Part shown: in pieces, positions 1,828 through 54,412 of the stretch | Numbering within the stretch: the stretch's first letter is position 1 | Layout: every line of letters starts with the position of its first letter | Notes under the pieces: generated by a model | Told to the model about the DNA's origin: nothing | The model's database searches: none | The model's input: the letters and a program-made list of their open reading frames with translations, nothing else | Program-made: the position numbers and the translations under genes | Assembly (NCBI GenBank): GCA_026002875.1 | Contig: BPGE01000001.1 | Location: 2,294,001 to 2,358,000, forward strand | Direction of reading: 5' to 3' | Origin: Bryobacteraceae bacterium | Lineage (GTDB): Bacteria; Acidobacteriota; Terriglobia; Bryobacterales; Bryobacteraceae | DNA: 64,000 bases

Positions 1828-2061
1828 GCCAGCGCTGGAGGGGCGGGCGGGTGAGGGTGCGCAAGGGTGGCGCCTGCGGCCCTGCGGAAAGCGAGGATCG
1901 ACCGGATTTGCGGCGCCGTGCGGCGCGCCCCGCGCAGGGGAACGAAGGGGGCGGCCGGGAGCAATCCGTCGTCTGTGCCGCTTTCGCGGAGAGGACGGTT
2001 TTTCTCAGGGTGGCGTTGCTCCGGAAGCGCGCAAGGGTGCAAGGGCGGCGGGGAACAGCGC

Positions 2062-4290
2062 GGGACACGGTCGGGATGCAGCCCTCGCGCAAGCGCGAGG
2101 GGAAACCCGTTGGGAGAGGGCGCGAGCGAACATCGTTGGGAACCGCTTGCTCTCGCGGGTCAGGGGAACATGGTTGGGATGCAGCCCTCGCGCAAGCGCG
2201 AGGGGAAACCCGCAGGAGAGCGCGGCTGGGGCACAGTTTGGATGCAGCCCTCGCGCGAGCGCGAGGGGAAGCCCGTGGGTGAGGGCGCGAGCGAACATCG
2301 TTGGGAACCGCTTGCTCTCGCGGGTCAGGGGAACACGGTTGGGATGCAGCCCTCGCGCAAGCGCGAGGGGAAACCCGTGGGCGAGGGCGCGAGCGAACAT
2401 CGTTGGGAACCGCTTGCTCTCGCGGGTCAGGGGAACACGGTTGGGATGCAGCCCTCGCGCAAGCGCGAGGGGAAGCCCGTGGGTGAGGGCGCGAGCGAAC
2501 ATCGTTGGGAACCGCTTGCTCTCGCGGGTCAGGGGAACACGGTCGGGATGCAGCCCTCGCGCAAGCACGAGGGGAAGCCCGTGGGGGGAGGGCGCGAGCG
2601 AACATCGTTGGGAACCGCTTGCTCTCGCGGCTCAGGGGAACACGGTTGGGATGCAGCCCTCGCGCAAGCGCGAGGGGAAGCCCGTTGGGGGGATCGCGCC
2701 GGGGCACGGTCGGGATGCAGCCCTCGCGCGAGCGCGAGGGGAAGCCCGTTGGGGGGATCGCGCCGGGGCACGATCGGGATGCAGCCCTCGCGCGAGCGCG
2801 AGGGGAAGCCCGTGGGTGAGGGCGCGAGCGAACATCGTTGGGAACCGCTTGCTCTCGCGGGTCAGGGGAACACGGTCGGGATGCAGCCCTCGCGCAAGCG
2901 CGAGGGGAAACCCGTTGGGGGGGATCGCGCCGGGGCACGGTTGGGATGCAGCCCTCGCGCAAGCGCGAGGGGAAACCCGTGGGCGAGGGCGCGAACGAAC
3001 ATCGTTGGGAACCGCTTGCTCTCGCGGGTCAGGGGAACACGGTCGGGATGCAGCCCTCGCGCAAGCGCGAGGGGAAACCCGTGGGCGAGGGCGCGAACGA
3101 ACATCGTTGGGAACCGCTTGCTCTCGCGGGTCAGGGGAACACGGTCGGGATGCAGCCCTCGCGCAAGCGCGAGGGGAAACCCGTTGGGAGAGGGCGCGAG
3201 CGAACATCGTTGGGAACCGCTTGCTCTCGCGGGTCAGGGGAACACGGTTGGGATGCAGCCATCGCGCAAGCGCGAGGGGAAGCCCGTGGGCGAGGGCGCG
3301 AGCGAACATCGTTGGGAACCGCTTGCTCTCGCGGGTCAGGGGAACACGGTTGGGATGCAGCCCTCGCGCAAGCGCGAGGGGAAACCCGTGGGGGAGGGCG
3401 CGAGCGAACATCGTTGGGAACCGCTTGCTCTCGCGGGTCAGGGGAACACGGTTGGGATGCAGCCCTCGCGCAAGCGCGAGGGGAAGCCCGTTGGGGGGAT
3501 CGCGCCGGGGCACGGTTGGGATGCAGCCCTCGCGCAAGCGCGAGGGGAAACCCGTTGGGAGAGGGCGCGAGCGAACATCGTTGGGAACCGCTTGCTCTCG
3601 CGGGTCAGGGGAACATGGTTGGGATGCAGCCCTCGCGCAAGCGCGAGGGGAAACCCGTTGGGGGAGGGCGCGAGCGAACATCGTTGGGAACCGCTTGCTC
3701 TCGCGGGTCAGGGCAACACGGTTGGGATGCAGCCCTCGCGCAAGCGCGAGGGGAAACCCGCTGGGGGAGGGCGCGAGCGAACATCGTTGGGAACCGCTTG
3801 CTCTCGCGGGTCAGGGGAACATGGTTGGGATGCAGCCCTCGCGCAAGCGCGAGGGGAAACCCGTTGGGAGAGGGCGCGAGCGAACATCGTTGGGAACCGC
3901 TTGCTCTCGCGGGTCAGGGGAACACGGTCGGGATGCAGCCCTCGCGCAAGCACGAGGGGAAGCCCGTGGGGGGAGGGCGCGAGCGAACATCGTTGGGAAC
4001 CGCTTGCTCTCGCGGGTCAGGGGAACATGGTTGGGATGCAGCCCTCGCGCAAGCGCGAGGGGAAACCCGTTGGGAGAGGGCGCGAGCGAACATCGTTGGG
4101 AACCGCTTGCTCTCGCGGGTCAGGGGAACACGGTTGGGATGCAGCCCTCGCGCAAGCGCGAGGGGAAGCCCGTTGGGGGGATCGCGCCGGGGCACGGTCG
4201 GGATGCAGCCCTCGCGCAAGCGCGAGGGGAAACCCGTTGGGGTAGGGCGCGAGCGAACATGGTCGGGGACCGCCCGCTCTCGCGGCTCTG
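2062..4290. repeat. Non-coding array of 24 hairpin repeat units with two spacer lengths
   Basis: A core beginning GATGCAGCC and followed by a perfect dyad (arms CCCTCGCGC and GCGCGAGGG, loop AA or GA) occurs 24 times. Cores start at 2075, 2178, 2241, 2343, 2445, 2547, 2650, 2714, 2778, 2880, 2945, 3047, 3149, 3252, 3354, 3456, 3520, 3623, 3726, 3829, 3932, 4035, 4138 and 4202. Seventeen intervals are 102-103 bases and six are 63-65 bases. The long spacer contains a second imperfect dyad (GCGCGAGCG ... CGCTTGCTCTCGC); the short one reads GGGGATCGCGCCGGGGCACGG. Interval lengths are not constant modulo 3, yet frames stay open throughout, so the long frames here are composition artefacts. The array lies between convergent gene ends (fliM and the gene at 4374-4805). 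Confidence 0.95.
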
Positions 4291-4373
4291 AGCCCGTCGG
4301 CCAGCCCATGCCGATGCGGCCTGATGGGCGAGTTGCGCGGTATTGAGATTGCGCGGGGATGCGCAGTTGTGGC
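4262..4373. other. Degenerate array flank and intergenic spacer
   Basis: The first 30 bases contain a diverged copy of the long-spacer module (GGGACCGCCCGCTCTCGCGG), which marks the decaying right edge of the array. I see no gene or clear terminator in the rest, up to the stop of the minus-strand membrane protein. Confidence 0.5.
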
Positions 4374-4805
4374 TCAGGGGAGGGTGAGCCAGGCGGAGGC
4401 GAAGAGCGCGCGCAACGTCCACACGGCGGTCCGCCACCAGTGGGAAACCACGAGCCTGCGATGCAGGGCGGGATCGAAGCCGCCGGAGAGCTTCGAGTGC
4501 AGAGGCACCTGGACCGCGAAGGTCGACAGCCAGACGACGCCCACAAGGAGGACCCCAGCCCAGAGCTGCCAGACCGGGACACCCTCAGGCTGCACGGCTG
4601 CGAGCCAGAGGGACAGGACGGCTTCGGCGGTCATCAGCGGCGCGGCGATCCATGTCGTGCGCTGCTGGTGGAGGCGCTCGTAGCGCGGAAATTCATTCCG
4701 GCCGACTTCGGCCATCAGAGGGTAGTGCACCAGAGCCACGAACCAGGACAGGCCGGTCATGGCCGCGGTGACGGCAGCGTGGAGGGACAGGACGAGGGGC
4801 GTCAT
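4374..4805 (-). CDS. Conserved hypothetical membrane protein, four TM segments
   Basis: This 143-residue protein is almost wholly hydrophobic, with about four membrane helices. It carries conserved-looking polar residues between them: ALVHYPLMAEVGRNEFPRYERLHQQRTTWI near residues 25-52, and VQVPLHSKLSGGFDPALHRRLV near 98-119. The pattern matches a widespread family of small uncharacterised bacterial membrane proteins, and I cannot assign a function. It is transcribed away from the FAD enzyme's 3' end, with 76 bases between them. Its own 3' end faces the hairpin array. Confidence 0.7.
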   Translation of the reverse strand: MTPLVLSLHAAVTAAMTGLSWFVALVHYPLMAEVGRNEFPRYERLHQQRTTWIAAPLMTAEAVLSLWLAAVQPEGVPVWQLWAGVLLVGVVWLSTFAVQVPLHSKLSGGFDPALHRRLVVSHWWRTAVWTLRALFASAWLTLP

Positions 4806-10450: not shown

Positions 10451-10864
10451 TCACAACAGCAGTGCGGCCAGGCCGGCCATGGAGCCCGCCGCGGCGGAGG
10501 CGGCCGGACCTGCGCGGCGCACCGCCATGGCTGCCAAAAGACAGAAGATGGTTCCGAGGGTTTCCGTCTGCAGAACGGGGGTGGAAGCGCCGGCCAGGGC
10601 GCGGGCGGCGAGGAACAGGACTGCGGCGGCAGACGCGCCCGTCCAGCTCCATCGCCAGACGGCCGCGCCTGCGCACCCCATGGCGAAGGGGAACAGCAGG
10701 CGCGCATCGCCCGTCGACCACTCGAGGGCCAGCCAGAAAGCCGCCGCCACCACAGCGGCCGCGGCTGATGGAAGCCCGGCGCGGCGCCACAGAGCGCCGG
10801 CGAGGACGGCCGCGAGGGCGATGTGACTGGAAACGCGGATCAGCAGCTCAGAACTCAAGGGCAA
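10451..10864 (-). CDS. Small hypothetical membrane protein
   Basis: The 137-residue product is dominated by alanine-rich hydrophobic stretches that form about four or five helices (for example HIALAAVLAGALW, AAAVVAAAFWLALEW and AAVLFLAARALAG). I do not recognise a family. Its ATG lies inside the last codons of the upstream glycosidase-like gene (17-base overlap), which suggests translational coupling. The next minus-strand gene is the GH42 enzyme. Because composition can keep such frames open by chance, confidence is moderate; the tight overlap and consistent hydrophobicity support a real gene. Confidence 0.55.
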   Translation of the reverse strand: MPLSSELLIRVSSHIALAAVLAGALWRRAGLPSAAAAVVAAAFWLALEWSTGDARLLFPFAMGCAGAAVWRWSWTGASAAAVLFLAARALAGASTPVLQTETLGTIFCLLAAMAVRRAGPAASAAAGSMAGLAALLL

Positions 10865-16493: not shown

Positions 16494-17684
16494 TCACGCC
16501 GCCGCGCGCGACAGGATCTCGCGCACGCGGCGTCCGACGATCTCGGCATCGCCCTTCTGCATCATCCAGACGGTGAAAACGAGCGCTTCTTTGTTGGTCA
16601 TCGGGCAGGCTTCGATCGACGGGCGGCCTTCGCGCAACTGCTTCATGACCTCGGGCGGCGTGATTTTGACGACGCTCTGGTCCCAGCGGATGCGCAGGTG
16701 CGGCGTGTGGTTGGCGATCGGGGGCAGGTGGACTTCGGTGGTGACGGTGTTCACGCGCCTCGCCTCGCGGGCGATGATTTCGACGCGGCGGTCCCATTCG
16801 CGCGCTTCGGCGGCGTGGTCTTTCTTCAGATACAGCTCGAGCGCGACGAGCATGCCGACCATCTCTTCCTTGTTCACCTTCATGCCGCGCGCGATGGAAT
16901 CGCTGTAAGGGGAAGTGTTCAGGCGCGCGGCTTCGATCAGCTCTTTTCTCCCCAGAAGCAATCCGGCGCTCTGCGGACCGCGGATTCCTTTCCCTCCGCT
17001 GAAGGCGACGAGGTCGAAGCCCATTTTCGTGTAGCGGCTGAGGTTTTCGACCGGCGGCACGTCGGCGGCGCAATCGTTGAAACTCGGGACGCCATGCTTC
17101 CTGCAGAGAGAAACGAATTCTTCCGCCTTGATGGCGCCCCGCGGCTCGGCATCGTTGAAGAAGAGCGCCATGGCGGTCTTGTCACTGACGGCGCGCTCGA
17201 ACTGCTCCGCCGATTCCACCTCCACCATGCGGATGCCGGTGGCGCGCACGGCATGATCGTAGGCGAAGCGGTGGGACTTCTGAATGATGACTTCGCTCTT
17301 CATGCCCGTCAGATCAGGGATGCGGCGGATCTTGTCCGGGTCCTTGCCGGTGATGCAGGCGGCGGCGCCGACGGTCAGCGCGCCCGCCGCGCCGGAAGTG
17401 ACCATGGCGGCTTCGCAGCCGAGCAGTTCGGCGATGCGCCTGCCGACGGCGTCCTGCAACTCGGTCAGGTTCACATAGTGTCTTGACGCCACGCGCATCG
17501 CCTCGAACACTTCCTCCGGCATCAGCGACGCCGTCAGCATCGTGTAGGTGCCCGCAGCATTGATGAACGTGCGGACGCCGAGCTCCGAGATGACATCGCG
17601 GCGGCGGGGCGCGGCGAGCCCGGCTCTGCTGAAGACGGGCAGGCTCCCAAGCGCGCCCAGAAACGGTCTTCGGCCGAAGATCAT
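16494..17684 (-). CDS. Tat-exported SelA-like PLP-dependent enzyme
   Basis: The 396-residue protein begins with a twin-arginine signal (FGRRPFLGALGSL). The rest is a fold-type I PLP enzyme of the SelA/D-glucosaminate-6-phosphate ammonia-lyase group: INAAGTYTMLTASLMP, VTSGAAGALTVGAAACITG, the Asp of NDCAAD (D204), and the Schiff-base lysine K232 in FSGGKGIRGPQSAGLLLG. It lacks the N-terminal tRNA-binding domain of true selenocysteine synthase, so it probably acts on an amino acid or amino sugar. Export of such an enzyme is unusual. It lies 56 bases downstream of uxaC on the same strand, which hints at a role in sugar-acid or amino-sugar breakdown. Confidence 0.82.
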   Translation of the reverse strand: MIFGRRPFLGALGSLPVFSRAGLAAPRRRDVISELGVRTFINAAGTYTMLTASLMPEEVFEAMRVASRHYVNLTELQDAVGRRIAELLGCEAAMVTSGAAGALTVGAAACITGKDPDKIRRIPDLTGMKSEVIIQKSHRFAYDHAVRATGIRMVEVESAEQFERAVSDKTAMALFFNDAEPRGAIKAEEFVSLCRKHGVPSFNDCAADVPPVENLSRYTKMGFDLVAFSGGKGIRGPQSAGLLLGRKELIEAARLNTSPYSDSIARGMKVNKEEMVGMLVALELYLKKDHAAEAREWDRRVEIIAREARRVNTVTTEVHLPPIANHTPHLRIRWDQSVVKITPPEVMKQLREGRPSIEACPMTNKEALVFTVWMMQKGDAEIVGRRVREILSRAAA

Positions 17685-37297: not shown

Positions 37298-38622
37298 GCC
37301 TGTTCGAGTTTGAGACGCCGCGCGAAGAGGAGCGCCTCGACGAAAGCCGTCCGCTGGCCGAGCGCATGCGCCCGGAGCGGCTGGAAGATTTCGTCGGGCA
37401 GGAGCACATTCTCGGAGCGGGCAAGCCGCTGCGGGTGCAGATTGAGACGGACCGGCTGACGTCGCTGATTCTGTGGGGACCGCCGGGAACGGGCAAGACG
37501 ACGCTGGCGCGGCTGATCGCGCGGACGACGAAGTGCGCGTTCGTTCCCTTCAGCGCCGTGCTGAGCGGCATCAAGGAAATCAGGGAGGTGATGGCGGCGG
37601 CGGAGAAGCACCGGCGGCAGGGGCTGCGCACGGTGCTCTTCGTCGACGAGATTCACCGCTTCAACAAGGCGCAGCAGGACGCGTTTCTGCCTTACGTTGA
37701 GCGCGGCGACATCATTCTGATCGGCGCCACGACGGAGAACCCATCGTTTGAAGTGGTGCCCGCTCTGCTGTCCCGGTCGAAGGTGTACGCGCTGCGCCCG
37801 CTGACCGTCGAGGAGACGGTGACGCTGCTGGAGCGGGCGCTGCCGGTGGTGGGCAAGACGGCGGCGCGCGAGCTGCTCGAACAGATCGCCGTGTACGCCG
37901 GAGGAGACGCGCGGCGCGCCTACAACATTCTCGAGATCGCCGCCGCGGCGAGCGCGGGCGCGGAGCTTGACCGCGCCGCCGTCGAGGACGCCATTCAGCG
38001 CAAGACGCTGCTCTATGACAAGAGCGGCGAGGAGCACTTCAATCTGATTTCGGCGCTGCACAAGAGCGTGCGGTCGTCCGATCCGGACGCGGCGCTGTAC
38101 TGGCTGGCGCGGATGCTCGAAGGCGGCGAGGACCGGCTCTACATTGCGCGGAGGCTGGTGCGCATGGCGATCGAGGACATCGGACTGGCCGATCCGCGCG
38201 CCGTGGAGCAGGCGGTAGCCTGCTGGCAGACGGTGCACTTTCTGGGCGAGCCGGAGGGCGATCAGGCGCTGGCGCAGGCGGCCATTTACCTCGCCGTGGC
38301 GCCAAAGTCCGATGCCGCCTACCGCGCGCTGAATGAAGCCCGCGAGGCGGCGCGGCAGAAGCCCGTGGACCCGGTGCCGATGCAGCTGCGCAACGCGCCC
38401 ACGCGCGCGATGAAAGAGTGGGGCTACGGCGCAGGCTACGAGCACGCGCATCAGCAGGAAGAAGGCCTCACGGCAATGGAATGCCTGCCCGAGTGGCTCG
38501 CGGGACGCCGGTTTTACGAGCCGACAGACCGCGGCGTCGAACAGCGCATCCGCGAGCGGCTGGAGGCGGTGCGGAAGTGGAAGGAAGCACGCCGGGGCGG
38601 GGGCCCGTCTGGCGATTCGTGA
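37294..38622 (+). CDS. rarA: Replication-associated recombination protein A (RarA/MgsA)
   Basis: RarA is an AAA+ ATPase related to clamp loaders that acts at stalled replication forks. The 442-residue length is typical. Visible motifs are LAERMRPERLEDFVGQEHILG, Walker A GPPGTGKTTLARLIA, Walker B TVLFVDEIHRFNKAQQDA, sensor 1 IGATTENPSFEVVPALLSRSKV and the C-terminal FNLISALHKSVRSSDPDAALYWLARMLEGGEDRLYIARRLVRMAIEDIGLADP. It shares the ATGA junction with the upstream RNA methyltransferase gene. Confidence 0.97.
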   Translation: MSLFEFETPREEERLDESRPLAERMRPERLEDFVGQEHILGAGKPLRVQIETDRLTSLILWGPPGTGKTTLARLIARTTKCAFVPFSAVLSGIKEIREVMAAAEKHRRQGLRTVLFVDEIHRFNKAQQDAFLPYVERGDIILIGATTENPSFEVVPALLSRSKVYALRPLTVEETVTLLERALPVVGKTAARELLEQIAVYAGGDARRAYNILEIAAAASAGAELDRAAVEDAIQRKTLLYDKSGEEHFNLISALHKSVRSSDPDAALYWLARMLEGGEDRLYIARRLVRMAIEDIGLADPRAVEQAVACWQTVHFLGEPEGDQALAQAAIYLAVAPKSDAAYRALNEAREAARQKPVDPVPMQLRNAPTRAMKEWGYGAGYEHAHQQEEGLTAMECLPEWLAGRRFYEPTDRGVEQRIRERLEAVRKWKEARRGGGPSGDS

Positions 38623-51560: not shown

Positions 51561-54412
51561 TCAGAAACGGATCCGGGCGCCGAGCTGAATGTTGCGCGGG
51601 AAGTTCAGCTGCGCCACCGGGAGCACGCCGAAATCGGCGCCCGCCGGGTTGGTCGACGGCGGGTCGCCGCGGAGAGGCGTATTGAAGGCATTAAACGCCT
51701 CGCCCCGGAACTCGACACTCCAGCCTTCCCGGGGCAGGTTGAAGCGCTTCGACACCATGAAATCGAACTGCGGCGCCGTGTGGGAGCGGATCTGGTGGAA
51801 GCGGTTGGGCAGGTCGCGGTACTCGAAGGGACGCAGCTGCCGCCAGCAGTCGCTGAAGCGGGTGCGGTCGTTGAAGAACCAGCGCGTTTCCGTGATCTCG
51901 ATCCCGGCGCGGGGGTCGCCGCAGCGGAACTCCCAGTCGCGCCAGGCTGCCAGCGGCACGCCGCTCTGGTAGATGAGGTTCATGTTCATCGTCCATCCGC
52001 CGGCGAGGAAGTCGACCACCTTGGGAGCATTGGCGCCGAACCGGCGGTTCCGGCCGAAGGGCAGATCCCAGATGGCCGCTGTGGTGAAGTTATGCGTGCG
52101 GTCCTCGGCCGTCACCTGATTGCGCATTTCCTGCCAGGCGAAGGCGTAGTCGTTGCGGAGGAAGTTCTCCATCATCTTCGACCAGGTGTAGGCGGTGATC
52201 CAAGTCGTGGCGCCGAAACGGGAGCGGTCGCCAAGCATGCGCTTCTCGAAGCGCGTCTGCAGCGCGTGGTACCAGACGCGGCCTGAGGGGTTGATGTTGT
52301 CGAATACGCTTGTGAAGCCGGGGAACGCCCGCAGCAGGTCGCGGCGGGAGATGTTAGCCTGCGTGTTCAGCGTCGTGCCCGGGCGCGCCTGGCCGAAGAA
52401 CGGGTTCGGCACGGCCTGCTGGTAGAAGCTGACGTTGGCCGGATCCTGGGCGCGGTCCCAGTGTTCGTGGGGCATGTCGCCGATCTGGATGCCGCGGCCC
52501 TCCTGCGTCGTGCGCGAGCCGACGTAGCTGGCCTCGATCACCATCGCCCACGGCAGCTCCCTCTCCAGCGTCAGCGACCACTGGCGCGTGCGCGGGATAG
52601 GGCGGTTCGGGTTGTCGAAGCTGACGCCGCCGCCGAAATTCGTCTGGATGCCCAGCTGGTTGCCGAAGGGCCTGACCACGCCGTCCGGGAAGGGGTTTTC
52701 CAGCGAGTACGGCCCTGTCAGACGGCTGGAGGGCGTCTGGCCGGCGTCGAAAGTGTTGATGTAGTCGGTGTTGATGCTGAAGCCGGTGGTGAGGTTGCGG
52801 CGCGTGTCCGTGCGGTGGAAGATGCCGAAGCCGCCGCGAAATACGGTCTTGTTCAACAGGTTGTACGCGAATCCGAACCGCGGCTGGATGTTGGTGAGAT
52901 CCCAGTTGTAGGTGCGCCGCGGCTCGCCCTTGACGCCGGCGAACTTCAGGCCGCCCACGATCGCAGTTGGAGGGGCCGGATATCCGGCTCCCTGTGCTGC
53001 GGCGATCTGACGCCAGCGGTCGAGAATCTGCGGACTGTTGGGGTGGACCGCTGTGTAGTCGAAGCCGCGGTTCACGCGGTTGTGGATCTCGTATTGCGGC
53101 CATTGCACGTCGTAGCGAAGCCCGAGGTTGAGCGTGAGGCGCCGTGTGACCCGCCAGTCGTCCTGGATGAAGCCGGCGGTGTACGACTCCCGGCGCAAGA
53201 ACGTGTCATTGAACGCCATGAACCCGCTCCAGATGTTGCCAAGCAGCAGGTCGGCCACGGAGCTGCCGTCACGCACCCCCTGGCTGACGCCGAAGAACTG
53301 CCGCGTCCACTGTCCGTTGAACGTGAACTCGCCGCTGGCCCGGCCGGCGGCGCGGTTGTGGAACAGCAGCTGCGCCAGCTCGATGCCGTATTTCAGCGAA
53401 TGCTTGCCCCGCGTTTCGGTCATGTTGGCCTGGAAATTGATCTGTTGCCGGGAGCTCTCATTAATGAAGTTGTTCCCGAAAAGGGCCGCAAATCCGCTGA
53501 CATTCACGCGCGGCGCAAGGTTCGTTGGAAACGTATCAACCTGGGGCATCTGGCGGATTCCGAGCTTGTCCCGCGTGAAAGCCGGGTCCGAAACATCCGG
53601 AAAATTTTGCACGAACCGATCGTAATTCGACTGCAGATGCAGCACCCGGGACGGTGAAAGGATACGGTCGTAGCTGATCAGATAATTCTGGTTCCGCCGC
53701 ACCGTGCCCGGCATGTTGCCGGTCTGCGCCGGGGGATCGAAGCCGTTCTGGTTGCGGAATTCGCTCCCATCCTGGAAAGTGAACATGAAGTACAGCCGGT
53801 TGTTGTCATTGATCACCTTGTCATAGCGAGCGATCGGCTGCTCGTAGCGGTACTTGCCGAGATTGTCCGGCCGGGTGAAGTTGTTCACGAGAGACTGCGG
53901 CTGGAAGTTGGGCGCCGGATAGTAGCCGAGGATCGCCCGTCCGATCGGGCTGATGCGCGCTGCCGGGATCATGTTGCCGGGGAAGGGATCGCGCCGGAAG
54001 ACGCCGCCCGAGATGCAGGTCACTTCGCCTCCGCAGGGACGGGAGGTCAGGGGATCGTGAATGGCGATCGGCCCCGTCTGGCCCTGGGGCGTAAAGCCGC
54101 TGAAATTGCCTTGCCGGATTTCCATCGGAGGCACGCTCACATTTGAAGGAAACGGCACGCGCTCGCGCCATCCCTCGAAGGAGAAGAACACGAAGTCCGT
54201 GTTTTTGCGCAGCGCGAAGCCCAGCGTGCCGCCGAACTGGTGCTGGTTGCGGAACCCGCGGCCCACGCCCAGTGCGTTGTTCTGCCGCGTGTTGGCGTCC
54301 AGAATCCGGTTGCGCCAGAAGTTGAACAGCGTGCCATGAAGGTCGTTGGTGCCCGACTTCAGCGTGGTGTTGACATGGCCCCCGCCTGACCGCCCGTACT
54401 GGGCGTCGTAGG
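51561..54412 (-). pseudogene. TonB-dependent receptor, 3' fragment (IS-disrupted)
   Basis: This holds about 948 codons of the receptor's barrel and late plug region. It begins with YDAQYGRSGGGHVNTTLKSGTNDLHGTLFNFWRN, typical of Oar-like receptors, and ends in LNFPRNIQLGARIRF with the terminal aromatic of outer-membrane barrels. The signal peptide and N-terminal domains are on the other side of the IS. A GTG inside the IS end (54434) would allow translation of this fragment in frame, but without a signal peptide it could not reach the outer membrane. Joining base 54403 to 55802 restores the gene. Confidence 0.95.
54404..54412. repeat. 9-bp target site duplication flanking IS copy 2
   Basis: CGTCGTAGG at 54404-54412 recurs exactly at 55802-55810, on the two sides of the element. 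It lies inside the receptor coding sequence. Confidence 0.95.

Follow-up and report, generated by a model that had tools for sequence, protein, structure and literature searches.

A two-hairpin tandem array beside fliM in a Bryobacteraceae genome, probably a mosaic of REP-like elements related to class-3 Y1 transposases

Genes for class-3 TnpA-Y1 transposases with flanking atypical hairpins have been described by Quentin et al. (2018, PMC6006769). In the part of that account drawn on here, the hairpins have a 5' CnGA foot and number about 600 in Solibacter usitatus, Acidobacteria are among the hosts, and the proteins share the signature NHVH, W[TA], YV[VI][AENY]EQ. The same pages give the basic unit of BIMEs and REPINs as two REPs in inverted orientation (PMC6006769). 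Tandem arrays made of two REP types, GI and GIII, have been described in P. fluorescens (PMC3116915, also drawn on in part).

The array reported here lies in a window of 64,000 nucleotides (the whole stretch of DNA that was analysed), positions 2,294,001-2,358,000 of G000, a single-contig genome of 4.86 Mb. It sits between convergent genes, as the first-pass annotation had stated: on the left fliM (823-1827, + strand; TIGR01397, 264.7 bits, and PF02154), encoding a flagellar motor switch protein, and on the right a 143-aa ORF (4374-4805, - strand) that is found in 5/5 genomes of the genus and gives no Pfam or NCBIfam match at E 0.001. The core, GATGCAGCCCTCGCGC, is present in 24 copies from 2075 to 4217, all on the + strand, of which 23 are exact and one has a single mismatch; with up to three mismatches allowed, the window gives 27 matches and its shuffles 4.4 ± 1.9. 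The 23 core-to-core intervals fall into the two classes originally noted, 102-103 (17 intervals) and 63-65 (six). A perfect Watson-Crick 9-bp dyad, claimed at first for every core, is found in 21 of the 24; the cores at 2554-2573 and 3939-3958 each contain one non-Watson-Crick pair (a wobble on the minus strand), and that at 3259-3278 has one mismatch in the stem. The 24 units comprise 23 distinct sequences, which argues, at the level of the assembly rather than of reads, against a simple assembly echo.

We refer to these elements as type-1 hairpins. The array of 24, supported by core matches and the covariation of the genome-wide family, spans 2075-4239 on the - strand, with 20-nt stems at 2082-2101, 2185-2204, 2248-2267, 2350-2369, 2452-2471, 2554-2573, 2657-2676, 2721-2740, 2785-2804, 2887-2906, 2952-2971, 3054-3073, 3156-3175, 3259-3278, 3361-3380, 3463-3482, 3527-3546, 3630-3649, 3733-3752, 3836-3855, 3939-3958, 4042-4061, 4145-4164 and 4209-4228. 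No gene was called by coding score in 1828-4373, so the array does not contain the internal transposase gene of an IS200/IS605 element. Between 1500 and 4800 there are no intrinsic terminators (a hairpin followed by a T run; 0 sites against 2.3 expected) and no sigma-70 promoters were found, and an Rfam scan of the window gave no match at gathering scores. The array is not CRISPR, as had been concluded, because its spacers repeat each other rather than being unique. Folding of single units as DNA had a mixed outcome: the four strands gave z-scores of -1.7, -1.2, -2.4 and 0.3, and the inner type-1 hairpin is predicted in the best structures of three of them, but the 103-nt unit as single-stranded DNA folds not clearly better than its shuffles (z -1.2 for the minus strand, 0.3 for the plus).

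The long spacer places CTGA-CCCGCGAGAGCAAGCGG-TTCCCAACG between type-1 units, and within it is the weak second dyad that had been noticed from the letters. We call this module type 2; its foot and hairpin overlap, the C and A of CTGAC being common to both. Since shuffles fold about as well as the long unit, the dyad is supported by comparison and not by energy. Seventeen modules of the form CTGAnCCGCG...GCGG lie on the - strand at 2143-2163, 2308-2328, 2410-2430, 2512-2532, 2615-2635, 2845-2865, 3012-3032, 3114-3134, 3217-3237, 3319-3339, 3421-3441, 3588-3608, 3691-3711, 3794-3814, 3897-3917, 4000-4020 and 4103-4123, and a diverged element with a CAGA foot (4270-4290, - strand; a weak profile match, E 4.7) stands at the 5' end of the array as read on that strand. 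A CnGA foot is thus present in all 18 type-2 modules of the window array, 17 as CTGA and one as CAGA.

A type-2 profile was made from the unselected 3' flanks of 34 other arrays with at least three copies, leaving out the window array. It matches 17/17 long spacers, at E 1e-4 to 3e-3, and its one other match in the 64 kb, at 4260-4287, is weak; the first ~8 bases of the profile belong to type 1, and still none of the six short units was matched. At E 0.001 the long-spacer sequence itself gives 18 matches in the window array and one 23-nt match at 456 kb. We had considered the long spacer as a local oddity and rejected this, profile relatives being found at the ends of other arrays. In a shuffle test, flanks resembling the type-2 module at p<0.01 number 6/34 on the 3' side and 6/34 on the 5' side (10/34 and 13/34 at p<0.05), so that many array flanks are without type 2. 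Counting both strands, two or more copies of the motif CnGAnCCGCG(5-45)GCGG lie within 700 bp at 11/21 class-3 loci against 8/280 control windows (1.4 kb each, from G000 alone), and at 9/18 class-3 loci outside G000; the 10/21 loci without two motifs include gene A (see below), which has none within 700 bp. Judged by profile and motif, relatives of type 2 flank some other arrays and, of the class-3 loci examined, about half, that of gene C among them. Together, the profile matches and the class-3 flanking identify the long unit as type 1 plus type 2 and the short unit as type 1 alone; the two spacer modules proposed initially do exist, but what sets the two apart is whether a second hairpin element is there, and they are not two arbitrary spacers. 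Further single matches to the type-2 motif are seen in the window at 158-188, 10810-10843 and 17123-17149 (-) and at 38189-38215 and 52873-52922 (+).

The type-1 hairpin is dispersed through the chromosome. The 103-bp unit has 332 matches genome-wide in G000, and the sites studied are those among the 103-bp matches listed together with an even sample; the stretches searched were 28 around listed sites, three around Y1-type genes and 20 evenly spaced samples of 20 kb. At up to three substitutions we find 370 type-1 hairpins in the fetched stretches, whereas 20 shuffles of 59.6 kb gave none, so the genome-wide search proposed in the first-pass annotation returns a dispersed family. The even sample holds 76 hairpins, of which 24 are the window array and 52 lie in the other 380 kb, giving a genome-wide estimate of ~660 with a wide error because the copies are clustered. 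The first 31 stretches contain 39 clusters, 33 of them with at least three copies, and the spacing of other arrays is mostly ~63, with 63 + 50, 43 + 40 and 64 only also seen. Among 61 genomes, from genus to class, the 64-bp unit is matched in four: G000 (152), G004 (13), G003 (2) and G033 (1).

Read on the minus strand, a type-1 hairpin sets a 7-base arm and its partner around a 2-base loop, with CGG[A/G][T/C]TTCCC ahead of the first arm and GGCTGCATCC after the second; the consensus is ACGGGTTTCCCC...GGCTGCATCC, in which CC/GG lengthen the stem to 9 bp. Among the 370 hairpins the dominant stems are CCCTCGCGC (255), CCCTCGGCC (43), CCATCGCGC (15) and CCGCCGCCC (13), each with the matching partner, and 332/370 stems are perfect when G-T is counted as a pair. 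The feet in the window are CGGG in 24/24 and CnGA in 0/24, and CGGA is the foot of 74/370 hairpins in the fetched stretches; by eye, the GT[AG]G foot of class-2 REPs is absent from the consensus stem. We aligned 63 type-1 hairpins, one per distinct foot and stem. Of the alignment cells 91.7% pair, against 84.1 in shuffles, and 47 cells, which count sequences and not events, carry a change on each side; shuffles give 12.7 (0/500 as high) and slid structures 0-3; the covariation score is 0.209 versus 0.084. Two-sided change is seen at 4/9 inner pairs, where shuffles give 3.8 and 375/500 reach the same number, and the count of pair types is marginal (21/500 shuffles). On this comparative evidence the type-1 stem is kept by compensatory change. 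An outer 4-bp stem, GGRT/ATCC, is possible and has no two-sided change.

A RAYT-type transposase, which the first-pass annotation suggested looking for, is encoded in the genome, and the likeness to REP/BIME clusters drawn there is supported. A Pfam search of G000 found two Y1_Tnp genes. Gene A (G000:2167718-2168167, 149 aa; PF01797, 28.1 bits, cut-off 23) is bracketed by two identical 57-nt copies of an extended type-1 variant, and downstream of it are two plain type-1 hairpins. Its motifs, HVH, WA and YVVEKQ, differ from the class-3 signature (PMC6006769) at two residues, and gene A may be said to fit that signature largely, as given in the part of the source drawn on. It is without the VDRRHN block and the RHGST motif of other class-3 proteins, and its NCBIfam scores stay under the cut-offs, at 27.9 for IS200 (cut-off 55) and 19 for REP transposases (cut-off 80); because of the two missing blocks and these scores its activity is doubtful, and it may be inactive. 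The extended variant around gene A (L023:1549-1605 and 2370-2426) carries a nested hairpin insert, with similar ones in L035, and a DDE transposase gene (PF13751, PF05598, PF01609; L023:13-1401) lies directly upstream of gene A.

Two further class-3-like genes have hairpins or repeats of their own. Gene B, at 2,182,253 in G000, has the motifs HVH and YVIEEQ and is surrounded by CGGAGCCGCG repeats; gene C, at about G000:800884-801378 (placed at 800,893 by the protein search), has HAH and YVADRQ, type 2 around it and CAGAGCCGCG...GAGCGGTCCCAACCGTG repeats on both sides. Relatives of these proteins were found by protein search in 15/61 genomes, G000 included, and Pfam Y1_Tnp matches 4/9 class-3 members. 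G004, with its 13 type-1 matches, is without a close gene A homologue and has the gene-B orthologue alone. For the G004 class-3 protein a single-sequence structure model came out poor (mean pLDDT 55.6); the model's best 27 Foldseek matches are IS200/IS605-type transposases, none at E<0.001, and at rank 33 is 4er8, a REP transposase bound to a REP hairpin. A class-3 alignment compared with solved structures gives, at E<=1, an acetyltransferase (0.35) and the IS200-type transposase 2f4f (0.39). As a partner transposase we also considered, and rejected, the gene at G000:3427295 (L009), which resembles ordinary REP transposases (NF047646, 78.6 bits, cut-off 80); no type-1 hairpins were found in 3.5 kb around it. 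G053, of the same order, has nine class-3-like matches, a number that fits an active insertion sequence better than a lone REP transposase.

Comparison among arrays and among genomes suggests that arrays grew in place. Over the 23 arrays of at least six copies, spacer identity is 0.79 within arrays and 0.59 between them, and core identity 0.935 and 0.909. One array (L024) has 23 copies in G000 and four in the sister genome G004, where the flanks are the same and the spacer is similar; since G004 is a draft, the 4-copy array may be a collapsed assembly. Array-specific spacers and the 23 versus 4 copies suggest that units were duplicated or lost in place once an array had been founded. The convergent pair that borders the window array is kept in G003 and G004, both drafts, and by eye no type-1 or type-2 repeat is seen in the G003 intergene (~135 bp) and no type-1 or type-2 element in that of G004 (~750 bp). 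In G001 the two neighbour genes are on different contigs, and in G002 they are ~3.7 Mb apart by contig coordinates.

Placement was examined for the 27/33 arrays, window array included, that have a called gene on both sides at most about 1.5 kb away, the other six being dropped. Their neighbours are convergent in 13 cases, co-directional in 12 and divergent in two, whereas the gene gaps of the even sample are 43 convergent, 169 co-directional and 34 divergent. Convergent arrangements are thus commoner at arrays (13/27) than among gaps >80 bp (21/91, p 0.016) or all gaps (43/246, p 0.0006), but the excess is gone when gaps are weighted by intergenic bases, some of which are in arrays (p 0.33). 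Arrays are also oriented. The 5' foot lies on the strand that is C-rich at third codon positions in 32/36 arrays, one site being counted twice, in 25/28 merged sites (p 3e-5) and in 29/31 where the skew is >0.1; the exceptions among the 28 are at 1,586,630, at 1,955,275 and the copies beside gene A. Third-position GC skew (sampled in L087-L106) belongs to the strand: genes share it whichever way they point, and along the chromosome its sign flips many times, as though numerous segments had been inverted. At the rplB and rpoB loci the coding strands are C-rich at third positions; these loci do not fix the leading strand, because codon choice can explain their C-richness. By eye, outer words such as GAAAATC (5') and GATTTTC (3') recur at several array flanks and are perhaps the ends of a larger composite element.

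We consider it likely that two kinds of REP-like, non-autonomous hairpin, both made by class-3 Y1 (HuH) transposases coded elsewhere in the chromosome, form the array as a mosaic, and that it grew in place, most likely as a passenger. A founding element would have come into the fliM intergene in single-stranded form, with a class-3 protein handling the DNA, a route that we infer from the protein family, and the row would then have grown by unequal tandem duplication of a 64-bp (type 1) or 102-103-bp (type 1 + type 2) unit. The array would persist because a convergent intergene without promoters tolerates it. A local tandem repeat raised by slippage, with no mobile element at its origin, would equally give array-specific spacers and a copy number that differs at an orthologous site, but the same hairpin is found in 39 clusters over 31 stretches, flanks a transposase gene and has a co-varying stem; dispersal and covariation make this account hard to hold, and we regard it as very improbable.

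That the array serves transcription between the convergent genes, by terminating transcripts, insulating them or shielding mRNA 3' ends, seems quite unlikely to us. Such a role would agree with the convergent excess as counted by gaps, with the inner hairpin predicted in three of four folded strands and with the conserved stem; the excess vanishes under weighting by intergenic bases, the region has no T-tract terminator, G003 has the same convergent pair with no repeat seen, copy number differs at an orthologous site (with the draft caveat) and the long unit has no folding advantage over its shuffles. The first-pass annotation had offered transcription insulation or a structured non-coding RNA as roles, and the missing terminator, the Rfam result and the orthologous site of two relatives, where no repeat is seen, leave both without support; the array is most likely a genomic passenger and not a transcription-insulating device. 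It is unlikely, too, that arrays are polar chromosome markers with an orientation selected for a replication, segregation or topology protein. The foot on the C-rich strand (32/36 arrays, 25/28 merged) and a skew that belongs to the DNA strand and not to gene direction speak for such markers, but strand-biased insertion of single-strand DNA elements gives the same pattern, no array is seen at the orthologous site in two relatives, and the 64-bp unit is in only 4/61 genomes, G000 included. A bolder extension of the mosaic reading, which we put forward tentatively and think rather unlikely, is that class-3 HuH transposases spread the two hairpin families strand-specifically during replication, polar arrays then marking replication direction along a skew-flipping chromosome. 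If so, arrays would either preserve a fossil record of fork direction or serve as signals that the host reads. G000 is a tractable case: its one chromosome holds hundreds of hairpin copies and three class-3-like genes, each next to a hairpin type of its own, array length seems to vary from one sister species to another, and the strand polarity can be compared with fork direction.

The GI and GIII hairpins of P. fluorescens are of the GTAG type and go with a class-2 RAYT. Their arrays are the closest precedent for the two-hairpin grammar (PMC3116915), which the first-pass annotation had thought unusual; tandem REP arrays of two types were already on record. As far as that source was drawn on, the hairpin families are different, the two types alternate there whereas type 2 is optional here, and the window array, with 24 + 18 elements, is bigger (PMC3116915). 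For the elements themselves the closest precedent is class 3, with its ~600 hairpins in Solibacter (PMC6006769). The genome resembles that system in having Y1 HuH genes with Y....Q (genes A, B and C), hairpins with a CnGA foot around the gene (here CTGA/CAGA in type 2, and CGGA in type 1 at gene A) and a high copy number, ~660 estimated here (PMC6006769). It departs from it in the CGGG feet of type 1 in the window and the divergence of gene A, and in tandem arrays, two interleaved hairpin types and strand polarity, which the part of PMC6006769 drawn on does not mention. Like BIMEs and REPINs, the arrays are mosaic intergenic clusters of short palindromes tied to a Y1 transposase, but 24/24 window cores are on one strand and there are no inverted pairs. 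Small palindromes, clusters, some conserved spacers and head-tail dimers are shared with the GTAG and CGTC REP superfamilies, as described in the part of PMC3733652 drawn on; by eye, neither tag is at the type-1 stem foot. A limited literature search found nothing on intergenic repeats in Bryobacter, and nothing joining REP elements, lagging strand and orientation bias. Against these precedents, and within that limited literature, what looks new is the size of the array, the optional second hairpin, the strand polarity of class-3 elements and a possible change of copy number between sister species.
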